Shown here in pieces: positions 7,936 through 32,775 of a stretch of 32,775 nucleotides of DNA (positions are counted from its first letter, which is position 1; each line of letters begins with the position of its first letter). The DNA comes from Verrucomicrobiota bacterium. Lineage in GTDB: Bacteria > Verrucomicrobiota > Verrucomicrobiia > Chthoniobacterales > JACTMZ01. The notes under the pieces were generated by a model that ran no database searches, was not told the origin of the DNA, and saw nothing but the letters and a program-made list of their open reading frames with translations. Both the position numbers and the translations under genes were made by a program. The stretch spans positions 8,591 to 41,365 of the forward strand of contig JACTMZ010000076.1 of assembly GCA_014584375.1 (NCBI GenBank), written 5' to 3'.

Positions 7936-8076
7936 AAAACCGGCTTTGGCCACATCATAGACGCCCGCCTCGCCTTCACCCTTCGCCACCACGGCGTCAC
8001 CCATTTCGCCACGGCGAACACAACACACTTTGAGGGATTTGGGTTTGAAAAGGTGTGGAATCCACTCAACCCTTGA
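7936..8076 (+). pseudogene. C-terminal remnant of a PIN-domain (VapC-like) toxin
   Basis: Frame from 7936: KTGFGHIIDARLAFTLRHHGVTHFATANTTHFEGFGFEKVWNPLNP*, the usual end of PIN domains (D..LA..L..HGV..FATxNxxHF.GFGF..VWNPL). No N-terminal half in frame. Confidence 0.6.
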
Positions 8077-8345
8077 AACGCTCAATTCAGGCCACTTCAA
8101 AACGACGGCACATGTATTATTCTGCAAAAGTTAGCGATTAGATTGGAGGGATGTCAGCAGGGTTCATTTGGAGGCGGATTTTGGCGGTGAGCCATTTTTC
8201 GTGTATTTTGCAGAGGGGAGCAGAGACAAGGCACAGGGAGGCTTTTTCGCTGCGGGCACCTTTTTCAAGAGCGCTGGGGCTGCGCCCCGGAAACCATTCA
8301 CATCATATTTTCGGCCTGATGTACCTTGGAAAGTTTCGTTGAGAA

Positions 8346-25225: not shown

Positions 25226-26362
25226 ATGAGAACAGCCCTCATCTTCGCAGTGCTGTTGGCGTGCGTCTGCTTCGGCGGCTGCAAAAGACATGAATCCGCC
25301 AAAAACGCACGGGAAATTGTCATTGGCGAATTCACATCCCTCACCGGTGCCACCGCAAATTTCGGGCAGTCCTCCAACAAGGGAACCCGAATGGCCATTG
25401 ACGAAATCAACGCGGCGGGCGGGCTGCTTGGAAAACCCGTGCGGCTGATCACCGAGGACGATCAATCCAAGGCCGGTGAACCAGCCATTGTCGTTCGCAA
25501 GCTGATTTCCCGAGACAACATCATCGCCTTGCTGGGCGAAGCCGCCTCCTCCCGTTCGTTGGAAGCCGCACCGATCGCCCAGCAAAACAAAGTGCCAATG
25601 ATTTCCCCCGCCTCGACAAACCCCAAGGTCACCGAAGTCGGCGATTACATCTTCCGAATCTGCTTCATTGATCCCTTCCAAGGAACCGTTTTGGCAAAAT
25701 TCGCCCTCGGGCGCGGATGGAACAACGTCGCCATTCTCACCGACAGCAAGCAGGATTACGCAGTCGGACTCAGCGAGTTTTTCAAAAAATACTTCGTCAA
25801 TAACGGCGGAACAATTGTCAGCGAACAAAACTACAGCTCGGGCGACAAGGACTTTAAGGCTCAACTCACCTCGATCTCCGCATCAAATCCCCAGGCGATT
25901 CTTGTGTCAGGCTACTACACCGAGGCGGGATTGATTGCCCGACAGGCGCGGGAACTCGGACTGAATGTCCCCCTGCTCGGCGGCGATGGATGGGACTCAC
26001 CCTCGCTCGTTGATGTGGCCGGCCCCGCCATGGAGGGAAATTTTTTCTCAAATCATTTCTCCGCCGAGGATCAATCGCCCATTATCCAAAATTTTATTCG
26101 CAAATTTAAGGAAAAGTACAACGAGTCTCCCGACGCCCTCGCAGCCCTCGGCTATGACTCGGCCATGATTTTGGCCGACGCCATCAAGCGGGCGGGCTCC
26201 ACCGATCCCGAACCGCTGCGGGACGCCATCGCCTCCACAAAGAATTTTCCCGCCGTCACCGGAACAATCACCCTCGATGAAAAGCGCAACGCCAGCAAAC
26301 CGGCTGTGATTCTTACGATCAAGGACGGTGAGTTCCGCTACGTCGAAACCATTTCACCCTGA
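25226..26362 (+). CDS. branched-chain amino acid ABC transporter substrate-binding lipoprotein (LivJ/K-like)
   Basis: Lipobox CFGGCK; IGEFTSLTGATANFGQSSNKGTRMAIDEINAAGGLLGKPVRLITEDDQSK; first gene of the liv-type operon. Confidence 0.92.
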   Translation: MRTALIFAVLLACVCFGGCKRHESAKNAREIVIGEFTSLTGATANFGQSSNKGTRMAIDEINAAGGLLGKPVRLITEDDQSKAGEPAIVVRKLISRDNIIALLGEAASSRSLEAAPIAQQNKVPMISPASTNPKVTEVGDYIFRICFIDPFQGTVLAKFALGRGWNNVAILTDSKQDYAVGLSEFFKKYFVNNGGTIVSEQNYSSGDKDFKAQLTSISASNPQAILVSGYYTEAGLIARQARELGLNVPLLGGDGWDSPSLVDVAGPAMEGNFFSNHFSAEDQSPIIQNFIRKFKEKYNESPDALAALGYDSAMILADAIKRAGSTDPEPLRDAIASTKNFPAVTGTITLDEKRNASKPAVILTIKDGEFRYVETISP

Positions 26363-26368
26363 CCGATC

Positions 26369-27298
26369 GTGAGCTGGGAAAATCTCGGGCAACAACTCGT
26401 CAACGGGCTTTCGCTTGGCTCCATCTACGCCCTGATCGCCCTCGGCTACACGATGGTTTACGGGATTTTGCGCTTCATCAATTTCGCCCACGGCGACGTG
26501 TTCATGATTGGCGCCTTCGCCGGACTCTACTTCCACCGCTGGCTCTCGCCATTTCTTGCGGGACTGCCCAATCTGCTTTCCGCCCTGATCATTTTGTTTT
26601 GCTCCATGGCGGTGTGCTCTCTGCTCGGAGTGATCATCGAAAAATGCGCCTACAAACCACTGCGAAAAAAAGGCCGCCTCATCATGCTCATCACCGCCAT
26701 CGGCGTCTCGCTCTTCCTCGCTTACACGGCGCAACTCGCCTTCGGCGCCACACCGAGGGGATTTCCGCCGCTTATTGATGTCCACACATTCGGCGGAGGC
26801 TCAACACCCGCTGTCACCTCCGTGCAAATCATTGTTCTGGGCGTCACGGTTGCCCTGCTGTTGGGACTGCGCTTCATCGTGATGAACACCCGCACAGGAC
26901 TGGCCATGCACGCCCTGTCCCTCAATCCCACCGCAGCCGCCCTGATGGGGGTAAATGCCGACAGCGCCATTTCGTTCACCTTTGCGCTGGGATCCGCGAT
27001 GGCGGGTGCCGCCGGAGTTTTCTATGCGCTGTTTTATCCGGCCATTGACCCGTTCATGGGCCTTACGCCAGGCATCAAGGCATTCGTCGCCGCCGTGCTC
27101 GGCGGCATCGGCAACATCCCCGGCGCCGCACTCGGCGGTGTTCTGCTCGGAGTCATCGAAACATTCGTCGTCGCCTACAGCCCAAACATTGGAGTCTCCT
27201 CCGGATACCGCGATGCGGTCGCCTTTGTCATTCTCATCCTCATCCTGCTCTTCAAACCCTCCGGACTCCTCGGAAAACCGGAAAACGAAAAGGTCTGA
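26369..27298 (+). CDS. livH: branched-chain amino acid ABC transporter permease (LivH-like)
   Basis: GTG start; GLSLGSIYALIALGYTMVYGILRFINFAHGDVFMIGAF. Confidence 0.92.
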   Translation: MSWENLGQQLVNGLSLGSIYALIALGYTMVYGILRFINFAHGDVFMIGAFAGLYFHRWLSPFLAGLPNLLSALIILFCSMAVCSLLGVIIEKCAYKPLRKKGRLIMLITAIGVSLFLAYTAQLAFGATPRGFPPLIDVHTFGGGSTPAVTSVQIIVLGVTVALLLGLRFIVMNTRTGLAMHALSLNPTAAALMGVNADSAISFTFALGSAMAGAAGVFYALFYPAIDPFMGLTPGIKAFVAAVLGGIGNIPGAALGGVLLGVIETFVVAYSPNIGVSSGYRDAVAFVILILILLFKPSGLLGKPENEKV

Positions 27299-28269
27299 TG
27301 AAATTTTCCAAACTCCGACCGCTCCATTATCTGCTGCTCGCAGCAGCGGCGAGCCTTGCTGTTTCGCTTTTCTCCGATCAGCTCGACCCGTACTTCCTGC
27401 AAGTCCTCATTCTCATCGGCATCAACATCATTCTCGCAGTCAGCCTGAACCTCGTAATGGGACACACCGGGCAGTTCTCACTCGGCCATGCCGGATTCAT
27501 GGCCGTGGGCGCCTATGCCTCCGCTTCGCTGACGCTCTTTGCCGGGCCCGCCGTTTTAAGTTCGCTTGGGGGCGGTGTTGTGGGAACCACCCTCCTTTTT
27601 GCCGCAGCCCTGGCGCTCGGGGGCGCTGCGGCAGGAGTCGCGGGTCTGCTGGTGGGCATTCCGTCTCTGCGGCTGCGCGGGGACTACCTCGCAATCGTCA
27701 CCCTCGGCTTCGCCGAAATTATCCGGGTCATATTGCAAAACACCGAAGCCGTCGGCGGAGCACGCGGATTGTCCGGCATCCCGCAATACACCGATTTCTT
27801 TTGGACCTACACCCTCGTCGCCCTGACAATCTGCGTGATCGCCAGCCTAATCAATTCCACCTACGGACGCGGATTTCTCGCAGTACGCGACGATGAAATC
27901 GCCGCCGAGGCCATGGGAATCAACACGACAAAATACAAGGTCATTGCCTTCGTCATCAGCGCATTTTTTGCCGGTATCGCGGGAGCCCTTTACGCCCACG
28001 CCTACATGTACATCAATCCGGAAGGCTTCAATTTTCTTAAATCCATTGATGCCGTCATCATGGTCATCCTTGGCGGCATGGGCAGCACTCTCGGCGTTGC
28101 GGCCGCAGCAGTGCTAATCACGACGCTCAATGAATTTCTCCGCGAATTCGAAGCCTTTCGCATGGTTGTTTTCGCCCTTCTCCTCATCATCATGATGATC
28201 CTTCGCCCGCAGGGGCTGTTTGGAAATTTTCGCGGATTCCGCCGCAAACGTCCCGCCGTCAATTCATGA
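27298..28269 (+). CDS. livM: branched-chain amino acid ABC transporter permease (LivM-like)
   Basis: INIILAVSLNLVMGHTGQFSLGHAGFMAVGAYASASL; GDYLAIVTLGFAEIIRVIL. Confidence 0.92.
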   Translation: MKFSKLRPLHYLLLAAAASLAVSLFSDQLDPYFLQVLILIGINIILAVSLNLVMGHTGQFSLGHAGFMAVGAYASASLTLFAGPAVLSSLGGGVVGTTLLFAAALALGGAAAGVAGLLVGIPSLRLRGDYLAIVTLGFAEIIRVILQNTEAVGGARGLSGIPQYTDFFWTYTLVALTICVIASLINSTYGRGFLAVRDDEIAAEAMGINTTKYKVIAFVISAFFAGIAGALYAHAYMYINPEGFNFLKSIDAVIMVILGGMGSTLGVAAAAVLITTLNEFLREFEAFRMVVFALLLIIMMILRPQGLFGNFRGFRRKRPAVNS

Positions 28270-29042
28270 ACACTCTCCTGCGGCTCGAACAGGTCACCGC
28301 CCAATTCGGCGGACTGAAAGCCGTCTCCGATTTGAATTTCTCGATCCATGCGGAGGAAATGGTCGGCCTCATCGGCCCGAACGGCGCGGGAAAAACCACC
28401 GTCTTCAATCTCATCACCGGCGTCTGCCGCCCAACATCCGGCTCCATTGTTTTTGACGGACATTCCGTCGCGGGCCGCCGCGTGTATAAAATCACTTCCC
28501 GGGGCATCGCCCGCACATTTCAAAACATCCGCCTCTTCGGCTCCCTCACCGTCTTTGACAATGTGCGCGCCGCGCTGAACATGAGCATCAAACACGGCCT
28601 TGCCCATGCCCTGATGCGAAACAAAAGCTTTCTGACGGAGGAAAAGGAAATCGCCGCACGAGTCATGGAGCTGCTCGATATTTTCCATCTTGCCACGGAG
28701 GCTGACAAGGCCGCCACAAGCCTCCCCTACGGCGCACAGCGACGCCTTGAAATTGTTCGCGCGCTCGCCACAGGCCCAAAACTCCTTCTCCTCGACGAAC
28801 CGGCCGCCGGCATGAATCCGAGCGAGAAGATCGAACTGATGAATCTCATTCGCTTCATTCAGGAAAAATTTCGCATCGCAACCCTTCTCGTCGAGCACGA
28901 CATGAAAGTCGTCATGGGCATTTGTCATCGCATCGCCGTCCTCGACCACGGCGTTAAAATTGCGGAAGGCACCCCCGACGAAATCCGGCGCGACCCAAAT
29001 GTCATCGAAGCTTATCTTGGGAAGGAGGGTGCCCGTGCTTGA
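28266..29042 (+). CDS. livG: branched-chain amino acid ABC transporter ATPase (LivG-like)
   Basis: GLIGPNGAGKTTVFNLITG; SLPYGAQRRLEIVRALATGPKLLLLDEPAAGMNPSE. Confidence 0.92.
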   Translation: MNTLLRLEQVTAQFGGLKAVSDLNFSIHAEEMVGLIGPNGAGKTTVFNLITGVCRPTSGSIVFDGHSVAGRRVYKITSRGIARTFQNIRLFGSLTVFDNVRAALNMSIKHGLAHALMRNKSFLTEEKEIAARVMELLDIFHLATEADKAATSLPYGAQRRLEIVRALATGPKLLLLDEPAAGMNPSEKIELMNLIRFIQEKFRIATLLVEHDMKVVMGICHRIAVLDHGVKIAEGTPDEIRRDPNVIEAYLGKEGARA

Positions 29043-29745
29043 ACTCAATGACATCCGCGTAAACTACGGTGCCATCGCCGCGCTGCACGGTGTCACCCTG
29101 CGGGTTCCCAAAGGAAAAATCGTCACTCTCATCGGTGCCAACGGCGCCGGCAAATCCACCACACTCCGGGCCGTTTCCGGCCTCGTCAATGTTCGCTCCG
29201 GTTCCATCATCTTCGGCGGCGCCCCAATCACCAATCTGCCGCCGCACCACATCGCCGCACTCGGCATCGCTCACGTTCCGGAAGGACGCATGATTTTTTC
29301 CAATCTTACCGTCATGGAAAACCTGCGCATGGGCGCCTATCTCCGAAAGGACAAAGGAAATTTCCCCGGCGACATGGATTACATTTTTAGTCTTTTCCCA
29401 AGACTTGGGGAACGCCTTCGGCAATCCGCTGGAACGCTCAGCGGCGGCGAGCAGCAAATGCTGGCCATCGGACGCGCCCTCATGAGCAAACCCAAATGCC
29501 TCATACTGGACGAGCCCTCCCTCGGCATCGCCCCCATTTTGGTGCAGGCCATCTTCGAAAAAATCGTCGAAATCAATCGAACAACCGGTGTCACAACCCT
29601 GCTTGTCGAACAAAACGCCAGCATCGCGCTCGAAATCTCCCACTACGGATACGTCCTGGAAACAGGAAAAATCACCCTCCAAAACGAATCCACCGCCCTC
29701 CTCAAAAACAGCGAAGTCCGCACCGCCTACCTCGGTGCAGAATAA
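29035..29745 (+). CDS. livF: branched-chain amino acid ABC transporter ATPase (LivF-like)
   Basis: GTG start at 29035; TLIGANGAGKSTTLRAVSG; LSGGEQQMLAIGRALMSKPKCLILDEPSLGIAP. Confidence 0.92.
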   Translation: MLELNDIRVNYGAIAALHGVTLRVPKGKIVTLIGANGAGKSTTLRAVSGLVNVRSGSIIFGGAPITNLPPHHIAALGIAHVPEGRMIFSNLTVMENLRMGAYLRKDKGNFPGDMDYIFSLFPRLGERLRQSAGTLSGGEQQMLAIGRALMSKPKCLILDEPSLGIAPILVQAIFEKIVEINRTTGVTTLLVEQNASIALEISHYGYVLETGKITLQNESTALLKNSEVRTAYLGAE

Positions 29746-30007
29746 ATAAGGGAGTGTAAAAATTTTTCTGTGATATCGCTCTCCCTGCTTTGAACGCCCC
29801 TTCCGGAGGCGGCAGAGTGAAGGAAGGCGAGCGAAACGAACCGAAGCGTCACACGGCCACCGGAAGAGACGCGCGCAAAGTTCGCTGAGGGCAGGAGACC
29901 ACGGAGATACTCACGATGGGGCTGCAACGGCTTTACCTCTCCCCTGTCGAATTTGCTAATCTTGACCCCGATTATTTCACCGTCCTTATTAAGCTGATTC
30001 AAAAATT

Positions 30008-30271
30008 ATGAAAGATCACGCCTACATAGACTACGAGCTGGACGGCAAACGCTACCGTTGGGCTGGGGCTCTTGACTTCTACGAAGGAATCCCTTCGCTC
30101 GAAGCTGCCGTGGACTCGCTCATAGACGAAGGATGCCAAGGGAAAAATCCGAACTTTAAACTACCCGAAGATGCCATCCTGCGGGCAGGCGGACGCATTT
30201 TGGAAATCCACAGCATAAGGCCCGACGGAAGCATCGAAGCCGAAGACCTGCCAGACCTTTACATCCCCTGA
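30008..30271 (+). CDS. small acidic hypothetical protein (87 aa)
   Basis: ORF MKDHAYIDYELDGKRYRWAGALDFYEGIPSLEAAVDSLIDEG...; no family recognised. Confidence 0.45.
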   Translation: MKDHAYIDYELDGKRYRWAGALDFYEGIPSLEAAVDSLIDEGCQGKNPNFKLPEDAILRAGGRILEIHSIRPDGSIEAEDLPDLYIP

Positions 30272-30276
30272 TCCTT

Positions 30277-30465
30277 ATGACACCGCCAACCATTAACTAC
30301 GTCAAAGAAACCACCTGTGCCTTTCCTGTGCGAAAGCAAAAACTACCCGACGGCCGCTGGGTCGTCATGCTCGGGGAGCCCGTCCACCGCTGTCGCACCA
30401 ACCAAGCCGTCCGGCTAACTGGTATCCCAAGCAAAACACGGCACCGCTTAGCCGACTGTGGCGTA
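30277..30465 (+). pseudogene. degenerate HTH/excisionase-like small gene
   Basis: VRKQKLPDGRWVVMLGEPVHRCRTNQAVRLTGIPSKTRHRLADCG resembles a helix-turn-helix start, then the frame becomes implausible. Confidence 0.35.
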
Positions 30466-30548
30466 TTCGCTACGCCGCCGATCTGGAGGATGGCGATTTG
30501 CAGAAAAAATAGGAGAACGGCGAAACCGGACGCGGATCACGAAGGGTT

Positions 30549-30671
30549 ACCGAACCGCTCCACCGGGTGCGCGGCGCTGTCGTACTTTCAGGCTATCCGT
30601 GCGACCTCTACGACCGCCTATTCGCGGACTGGGAGGAGAGGCGAGCCCTCCGCGGCAGCAGCGCCGACCCT
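30549..30671 (+). pseudogene. C-terminal fragment of a D12-class (Dam-type) DNA adenine methyltransferase
   Basis: TEPLHRVRGAVVLSGYPCDLYDRLFADWEERRA matches the conserved LSGY..xLYD.L...W end of D12 methylases; catalytic N-terminal region absent. Confidence 0.55.
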
Positions 30672-31249
30672 CCACGCGCTCTGAAAAGTATGGGTTCGGA
30701 TGACCCTTTTCAATTTCGGCGTCAGAACTTTTCCATCAATTATCTCCGAAAAGGGTCTCACTCAATCTTCGGCAACACCACACTACCCCGTGACCCCCGA
30801 TAAATACTGCATCTCCAGCCCTCCGCTCAGTCCAATGTCATCCAGCACCTAGTACAACCCTTTTCCATATTTTTGGCCGGTCATGAGGGCGGCCAGTGTG
30901 GTTTCCTGTCGGGGCAACTCAAACACATTCAACAAAGAACCTGCGCAAGGCCAACCAAGTTGATTCGGATCTTCTGATAACCGTCGCGCAACTCCTCTCC
31001 TCCGAGTGCTCCTCGAGCTTTGCCAAGAATCTGCGGCTGCTCGTCGGTCATGGTTCAGGAACGCTCCTGCATCCTCCAAGGCCGCCCTTGCCAACATTGC
31101 GATAGCCGACTGAATCGCCAATGGATTCAAATCCAAAACCCTCGCCACACGCCTCGATAGGCGCACCCGTGTCGCCGCCAACATCCGCTCCATCTTCAAT
31201 TGCCCCGGTCTCCCTTCTGCTCAGACTCGCCATCAATTACTTCGTGTGA

Positions 31250-31272
31250 TGGCGACCCTAACGGGATTCGAA
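31250..31272 (-). repeat. isolated tRNA 3'-end fragment (T-loop to CCA), candidate attachment-site scar
   Basis: Minus strand TTCGAAT-CCCGT-TAGGGTC-G-CCA has exact tRNA spacing (7-nt T-loop, 5-nt T-stem, 7-nt acceptor, discriminator, CCA), but no matching 5' tRNA sequence is next to it. Confidence 0.55.
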
Positions 31273-31380
31273 TGGCGACCCCGCATCGTTGATTTTGCGG
31301 AAGTCTGCGTGTTCATGCGACTTACGACATTACCGCCAGTCGGCCCACAGGCAAGGTTTCGCACGGTTTACGGGCGAAAA

Positions 31381-32103
31381 TTATGATTTTTGCATTACGG
31401 GCGCACTTGGGCCGGTCTCTATCGTCACCGTCGTGCGCCGTTTGATGTCGGCCACAATCCATTTCGGTGCGGCTGCAAACAGAAGCATTTCAGCGTGGTA
31501 TGGCCTCTCCTGCTTTAGGGCTTCCTTGGCCACCTTCTTCATCAAATCACAGTATTCGAAATAGGCGGTTTTGTGCGAGCGGACCGTGAATGATCTTCCC
31601 GAAAGAGTCATCAAGGTATTCGCGTCGATGTCGGCTAACTCTGCGTTTCGTCCAAGGGGTTGCGGAAAGAGATTGGGCTTCTCCGTGTGGCAGAAGAGAA
31701 GCCAGTTGAGGGCAAAGATAACACGGGAGTCGTAGATGGAATAAGTGTCTGCCTTCTTGAACGAGGCAACTTTTGAAAGTGATGAGATCACCCCGAAAAT
31801 CTCCCGCGTCATCTTGCCTTCACAGAGTTGCCGTTCGAATGAATGAATCCGCCTCTGGTTTTCCGGGGTGTCCTTGAACGTCCTGATCCCGCCCCATTTC
31901 TGGATGATCCAAAAGTGAGATTTTCGATCCGTGTCATTTTCAAGAAGCGGAGCGAGATTCTCCTTCAGATAGAAATTCCGGCAGAATGAACCCTCGACGG
32001 TCTCGGGAATAGAAATCGGGCAATCAGGCGGCACATCCCATGAGAAGTGCTCCTCAATCGGCAAAGCTTGAGCGAGTTCAACAATTGCCTGCTCCAAGCT
32101 CAT
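31381..32103 (-). CDS. uncharacterised protein, ATGA-coupled to hsdM remnant
   Basis: MSLEQAIVELAQALPIEEHFSWDVPPDCPISIPETVEGSFCRNFYLKENLAPLLENDTDRKSHFWIIQKWGGIRTF... 240 aa. ATG at 32103 overlaps the hsdM stop TGA. The 451-aa ORF-track start is a frame artefact. Confidence 0.65.
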   Translation of the reverse strand: MSLEQAIVELAQALPIEEHFSWDVPPDCPISIPETVEGSFCRNFYLKENLAPLLENDTDRKSHFWIIQKWGGIRTFKDTPENQRRIHSFERQLCEGKMTREIFGVISSLSKVASFKKADTYSIYDSRVIFALNWLLFCHTEKPNLFPQPLGRNAELADIDANTLMTLSGRSFTVRSHKTAYFEYCDLMKKVAKEALKQERPYHAEMLLFAAAPKWIVADIKRRTTVTIETGPSAPVMQKS

Positions 32104-32680
32104 GGCGCTGCTTTTGCGCCTGCCCCGAGGCGGGCGAGGATACCCCGCAATTCCTCGTTCTTGGCGGCGATGAACTCCAGCAACTGCGCCGGGGTACGGG
32201 TGTCTTCGTCCGTTTTGGCGTTGGGATTGATTGCCTTCAGATCGAAGGCGGCATCTTCGACGGCTTGCGCCTTTGCATCGATTTCCCGGATCTCGCGCTC
32301 GGCATCCTTGATGCGTTCCTTCACGGCATCCTGCTTTGCGGTATCGGCCTTCGCGGATTTGAGGCGGTCCAGTTCTTCCTGATCCTTTTTGAGGCGGGCC
32401 TTGGGTTCGTTCGCGGTGGCCCGCAGCGCGTCGGCATCGTGTTTGGCTTTCCGGCGGCGCTCCGCGATGTCCACGGTCCAGCTTCGGTCGCTGTCGCCGC
32501 GTGACGGGAGGAGTTTGAAGAACTCGGCCAGCTTGTCGCGAGTGAACGGGGTCTTCTTGCCGACCTTCACGTCGGACAGGTCGTAATACCAGATGGTCTT
32601 GGTCTGCTGACCTTTGGTGAAGAAAAGGAGGTTGGTCTTCACCCCGGCCCCCGTGGCGCTGAAGACACCGGCGGTAAAGT
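32100..32680 (-). pseudogene. hsdM: type I restriction-modification methyltransferase subunit (HsdM), C-terminal part only
   Basis: AGVFSATGAGVKTNLLFFTKGQQTKTIWYYDLSDVKVGKKTPFTRDKLAEFFKLLPSRGDSDRSWTVDI is HsdM-like; family-like sequence stops abruptly upstream near 32670-32690. Confidence 0.72.
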
Positions 32681-32734
32681 TCCCCCGATTTGATGGACAA
32701 GCAGGGCGCAATACCATCAGAAAGGACTGCAAAC

Positions 32735-32775
32735 ATGCCAAAGACACATCCACGCTACGAAAAGGACTTCCGACA
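32735..32775 (+). CDS. possible IS transposase (OrfA-like) N-terminus, runs off window
   Basis: ATG at 32735: MPKTHPRYEKDFR, resembling IS OrfA starts; lies at the hsdM breakpoint. Only 13 codons visible. Confidence 0.35.
   Translation, partial: MPKTHPRYEKDFR

Follow-up and report, generated by a model that had tools for sequence, protein, structure and literature searches.

A displaced tRNA 3' end is a well-known scar of mobile-DNA insertion. In the Islander definition, the end of a tDNA island is a displaced 3' fragment of the tRNA gene to which a same-orientation rule applies (PMC4383910), and tRNA fragments are also discussed in PMC9897764. The DNA studied here, a window of 32,775 nucleotides, comes from a contig of 41,365 bases and covers 8591-41365 of it; window base 32775 is the end of that contig. 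The contig belongs to a metagenome-assembled genome (MAG) of 1.86 Mb in 193 contigs that is 89% complete, which was the genome searched throughout. The fragment at 31250-31272 of this window, on the minus strand, resembles the tDNA islands of Islander (PMC4383910) in being a displaced 3' fragment, in the same-orientation rule, and in the T-loop/T-stem crossover, because the shared block starts at the T-loop, within Islander class J. Its relatives further share tyrosine integrases and tandem arrays with the Islander cases. The locus differs from them in that the tRNA end and the integrase lie outside the assembly and the interval is open. The phenomenon is known, and this island is a fresh instance of it.

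The minus-strand letters of 31250-31272, TTCGAATCCCGTTAGGGTCGCCA, comprise a T-loop, the 3' strand of the T-stem, the 3' acceptor strand, a discriminator G, and CCA. The intact tRNA-Glu(UUC) gene of a genome of the same genus (G009), in which CCA is encoded, ends in the identical 23 nt. Using 23 or 21 nt of the tRNA 3' end to collect occurrences in relatives, we obtained 98 that are intact tRNA-Glu genes with the anticodon TTC according to ARAGORN. Exact matches among named records came mostly from Verrucomicrobia MAGs, many of them labelled Chthoniobacterales or Spartobacteria, and also from Chthoniobacter flavus Ellin428. The fragment is therefore identical to the tRNA 3' end of its genus and order, and it lies outside any tRNA gene. 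ARAGORN and Rfam detected no tRNA at 31250-31272, and the 5' acceptor strand GACCCTA was not found on the minus strand of the whole window; accordingly, the 23-mer is an orphan. Allowing up to 3 mismatches, it occurs once in the window, where shuffled sequences gave an expectation of 0, and once in the whole genome. We thus confirmed that 31250-31272 is the displaced 3' end of a Chthoniobacterales tRNA-Glu(UUC) without the tRNA body, and both the tRNA-like layout and the orphan state proposed in the preliminary description were borne out.

The assembly contains a tRNA-Glu(CUC) gene, on contig C18, and no intact tRNA-Glu(UUC) gene was found anywhere in it. Because the CUC anticodon cannot read GAA, a tRNA-Glu(UUC) gene must exist in this organism and be located in an assembly gap, so that its absence from the MAG reflects a gap and is not a refutation. 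Likewise, no tyrosine integrase of the island type was detected in the visible 1.5 kb to the right of the fragment or elsewhere in the assembly; of the five PF00589 matches in the genome, two resemble XerC and XerD, one resembles a partial integron-type integrase, and the other two appear to be remnants. A location of the intact tRNA or the integrase elsewhere in the MAG was accordingly rejected, the searches of the assembly being empty. On the contig itself no cognate intact tRNA in the same orientation was seen, and neither tRNA nor integrase is visible to the right of 32775 because the contig ends at the last base of the window.

For comparison, we used 213 genomes of the order Chthoniobacterales. 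The tRNA 3' pattern was present in 150 of them, mostly as intact tRNA, and approximately 30 distinct orphan fragments were collected. Ten pairs of a tRNA-Glu gene and an orphan on the same contig were found, with members 3 to 95 kb apart (4.8 kb in G002, 9.4 in G018, 9.3 in G032, 3.1 in G064, 95 in G072, 5.1 in G097, 9.7 in G135, 6.4 in G156, 7.8 in G168, and 3.9 in L116); the orphan of G064 has one mismatch and that of G097 covers a greater length of the tRNA. In all ten, the orphan is in the same orientation as the intact tRNA and 3' of it, an arrangement with a chance of 1/4 per pair, and a tyrosine integrase adjoins the tRNA (in G097, the fragment) in six. The 95-kb interval (G072:C60:177137-272158), in which an intact tRNA-Glu(UUC) with an adjoining integrase is followed downstream by an orphan in the right orientation, is a candidate for a large island or an array. 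The outer flanks of four orphans (L162, L208, L215, and L217) correspond to genes located 3' of intact tRNA-Glu in L091, L093, or L107, and the two sets represent a single site with and without an island. L018/L020 was rejected as a further empty/filled pair, since the 188 bp common to them reads as an integrase 5' remnant plus arm, not as chromosomal flank.

Individual islands in the relatives resemble the locus in different respects. The element at L157 (G002:C15), in the same genus, also occupies tRNA-Glu(UUC) and carries RCGACTTACG at +11; its integrase lies directly 3' of the tRNA, followed by cargo and then by the orphan, which is 4.8 kb from the tRNA and oriented as predicted. It differs from the window in its damaged-looking integrase frame, in cargo other than type I restriction-modification (R-M), and in an inner arm unlike that of the window. 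In the island at L163 (G032:C15), an R-M gene is the cargo nearest to the fragment, as in the window, and tRNA-Glu(UUC) is at the opposite end, 9.3 kb away. However, this R-M gene is of a type II, BsuBI/PstI-like kind, whereas that of the window is type I, and the island is complete, with the integrase beside the tRNA. The L077/L197 island end (G090:C143) has an inner flank that aligns in register with 31294-31396 of the window, but it carries AbiE-like genes instead of R-M, and a second integrase directly outside the fragment makes it a tandem junction.

Three signs connect the window with these islands: its inner flank, a 10-mer within that flank, and, on the outer side, a 9-bp inverted repeat. 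We compared approximately 31 orphan arms pairwise with the window, and the match of 31294-31396 (plus strand) to L077, from another genus, survived correction: its score was 45, whereas shuffles averaged 17.0 (sd 2.8) and 0 of 3000 reached that value, and the alignment begins 22 nt from the core in both sequences. With a profile of one common orphan-arm family the window scored within the shuffles, and the pairwise comparison alone picked out its arm, most clearly with L077. At 31317-31326 on the plus strand, GCGACTTACG is a candidate integrase arm site. At ten sites, each a tRNA or a fragment, the same 10-mer, RCGACTTACG, is placed on the outer side of the core at a distance of exactly 11 nt, and most of these sites have an adjoining integrase (among them L044, L077, L087, L156 with one mismatch, L157, and L209). 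The window has a single copy, on the inner side of the core and 44 nt from it, with 0.05 copies expected in the whole window. Since this motif was spotted post hoc, we regard it as supporting evidence only. Separately, the orphans L206, L207, L208, L213, L215, L216, and L217 form one family that has in common a conserved arm of approximately 110 nt on the inner side of the fragment, a recognizable signature of an island end.

The genes to the right of the fragment are consistent with island cargo. A minus-strand gene at 31381-32103 encodes 240 amino acids without an assigned function and overlaps the end of hsdM; the other 212 of the 213 order genomes contain no homologue, no family match was obtained, and a plasmid search with this gene found nothing. 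It is followed by the C-terminal part of the type I R-M methylase HsdM (32100-32676, minus strand; PADLOC MTase_I, E 2.2e-36; weak match to Pfam N6_Mtase), the 5' part of which is missing. This is all of the type I R-M system that is in view before a probable insertion sequence (IS) at 32677-32775 (plus strand) and the contig end, with neither hsdS nor hsdR visible. The sequence cutting hsdM at about 32676 is probably an IS and the cause of the contig break, and the contig stops inside it; the transposase nature of its frame from 32736 is inferred from 13 residues. The first 70 bp of this element recur at 81% on contig C72, which was rejected as the other half of the IS because just this similar leader is shared. 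In sister islands, a BsuBI/PstI-type R-M gene (G032) and AbiE (L116) were found, and such defence cargo is typical.

On this evidence, 31250-31272 is very probably attR, the distal end of an island that inserted into tRNA-Glu(UUC) and lies to the right. Carrying its own tyrosine integrase, a mobile island would have recombined with the chromosomal tRNA-Glu(UUC) gene at its T-loop/3' end; the island-borne copy of the 3' end would have restored the tRNA on the insertion side, and the original 3' end would have been displaced to the far side, where it is now found at 31250-31272. The island would extend rightward on the plus strand, which in terms of the tRNA strand is the 5' side of the fragment, and would contain the gene at 31381-32103 and the methylase gene, later broken by the probable IS. 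At its other end, past the end of the contig, an intact tRNA-Glu(UUC) on the minus strand would be expected, beginning GACCCTATCGTCCAG; this tRNA and an integrase beyond the gap, and also the integrase subfamily that acted, are what we infer from the relatives. The attR reading is based on the exact tRNA-Glu(UUC) 3' end without a tRNA, the geometry common to all ten pairs and the integrases in six of them, the in-register match to the L077 island end, RCGACTTACG at 31317-31326, the empty sites in relatives, the confinement of the 240-amino-acid gene to one genome, the defence cargo of sister islands, and the missing tRNA-Glu(UUC) in the assembly. Counted against it are that the genome of the window yielded neither an intact tRNA-Glu(UUC) nor an integrase nor an empty site, that the outer flank 29746-31249 resembles no tRNA 3' flank, and that the arm motif was recognized post hoc. 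The preliminary description had read the fragment as the distal end of an island to the right that includes the hsdM-linked genes, and the comparison with relatives supports its identity, mechanism, and direction; the intact tRNA and integrase that it predicted fall beyond the contig end.

On the outer side, 29746-31249 is debris. It contains a remnant of a Mutator-family (IS256-like) transposase gene at 31150-31230 (plus strand; Pfam Transposase_mut), of which 27 codons align to a transposase of G003:C46, and a 177-bp stretch at 30286-30462 that recurs at 97% identity at C106:17223-17399, near the end of that contig. Filled and empty pairs were seen for other islands of the class, and the outer flank of the window has no tRNA-adjacent homologue, matching none of the 3' flanks of intact tRNA-Glu in relatives. 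Further left, 25226-29745 is a branched-chain amino-acid ABC transporter cluster whose binding protein has best homologues just 36-41% identical, in other genomes of the genus; these transporter genes were for this reason dropped as an uninformative synteny anchor, and the cluster has perhaps itself been acquired. In a distant part of the window, 8103-8232 is 77% identical over 130 bp, on the opposite strand, to the 3' end of the same Mutator-type transposase gene of G003:C46 and the sequence downstream of it.

The fragment also has a partial second copy. ATGGCGACCC is present at 31249-31258 and 31272-31281, exactly 23 apart, and therefore TGGCGACCC at 31273-31281 (GGGTCGCCA on the minus strand) is a 9-nt direct repeat that abuts the 23-mer in register. 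The second copy reported previously is thus real, and the chance of a 9-nt match at one fixed offset is about 4e-6, assuming equal base frequencies. Because the L077 island end has other letters at this position, the partial repeat is peculiar to the genome of the window, where it may have arisen by slippage or be a relic of an earlier att half. A similar incomplete repeat adjoins tRNA-Glu in G009; there (L158, G009:C68, about 7966-8110), the tRNA 3' end and a palindromic flank 3' of the tRNA are repeated approximately 130 bp further on. In addition, the outer flank of the window forms a 9-bp inverted repeat (31227-31255) with the tRNA 3' end, resembling hairpins in the trailers of some of the order's tRNA-Glu genes; stems of this kind of at least 6 bp occur in about one-fifth of intact tRNA-Glu trailers versus 3% of shuffles.

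These flanking features bear on an alternative in which the fragment is the junction of a tandem array, serving both as attR of the right island and as the attachment site of a decayed left island, with the 1.5 kb of debris at 29746-31249 as that second island. L077 and L098 are examples of such use, with an integrase beginning immediately on the outer side of the orphan; debris with a transposase remnant and the genome repeat, as well as a copy at 31273-31281 that could be an att relic, would suit it. However, a scan of the window ORFs revealed no integrase remnant of this class to the left of the fragment, the outer flank lacks RCGACTTACG at +11, and no second fragment exists further left in the window, which makes a tandem array rather unlikely. 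It is a variant of the attR reading, not its opposite, and under both, 31250-31272 is a piece of an attachment site and has an island on its right. Less probable still is a dispersed copy formed without an integrase, by local duplication or as a repeat derived from the tRNA-Glu 3' end and moved by transposition or illegitimate recombination. The shorter tRNA 3' copy in the local repeat of G009, additional partial copies near the orphan of G002, and the transposase remnant adjoining the fragment would fit such an origin, but the 23-mer is the sole copy in its genome, and the end point at the T-loop together with the in-register flank homology to an island end fit the integrase-made class. Chance resemblance, for which nothing but the shortness of the 23-mer speaks, can practically be dismissed given its exact identity to a same-genus tRNA-Glu(UUC), the 0 shuffle matches expected at up to 3 mismatches, its rarity in the genome, and the flank homology with another orphan.

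The attR reading explains an odd 23-nt sequence and predicts the content of an assembly gap. More broadly, and tentatively, tRNA-Glu(UUC) might be an order-wide hot spot of Chthoniobacterales for a distinct tyrosine-integrase subfamily. This subfamily would be marked by a fixed arm, RCGACTTACG, placed on the integrase side 11 nt beyond the tRNA core, and it would mobilize islands of small size (frequently about 4 to 10 kb), among them several with defence genes such as R-M or AbiE, and pile them up in tandem. The window would hold one of these islands, with the arm motif on the distal side. A short literature search found no description of such a hot spot in Chthoniobacterales. The finding points to a hot spot for islands in a poorly cultured order of bacteria, and the fragment and the arm motif together provide a sequence tag useful for delimiting islands in fragmented MAGs.
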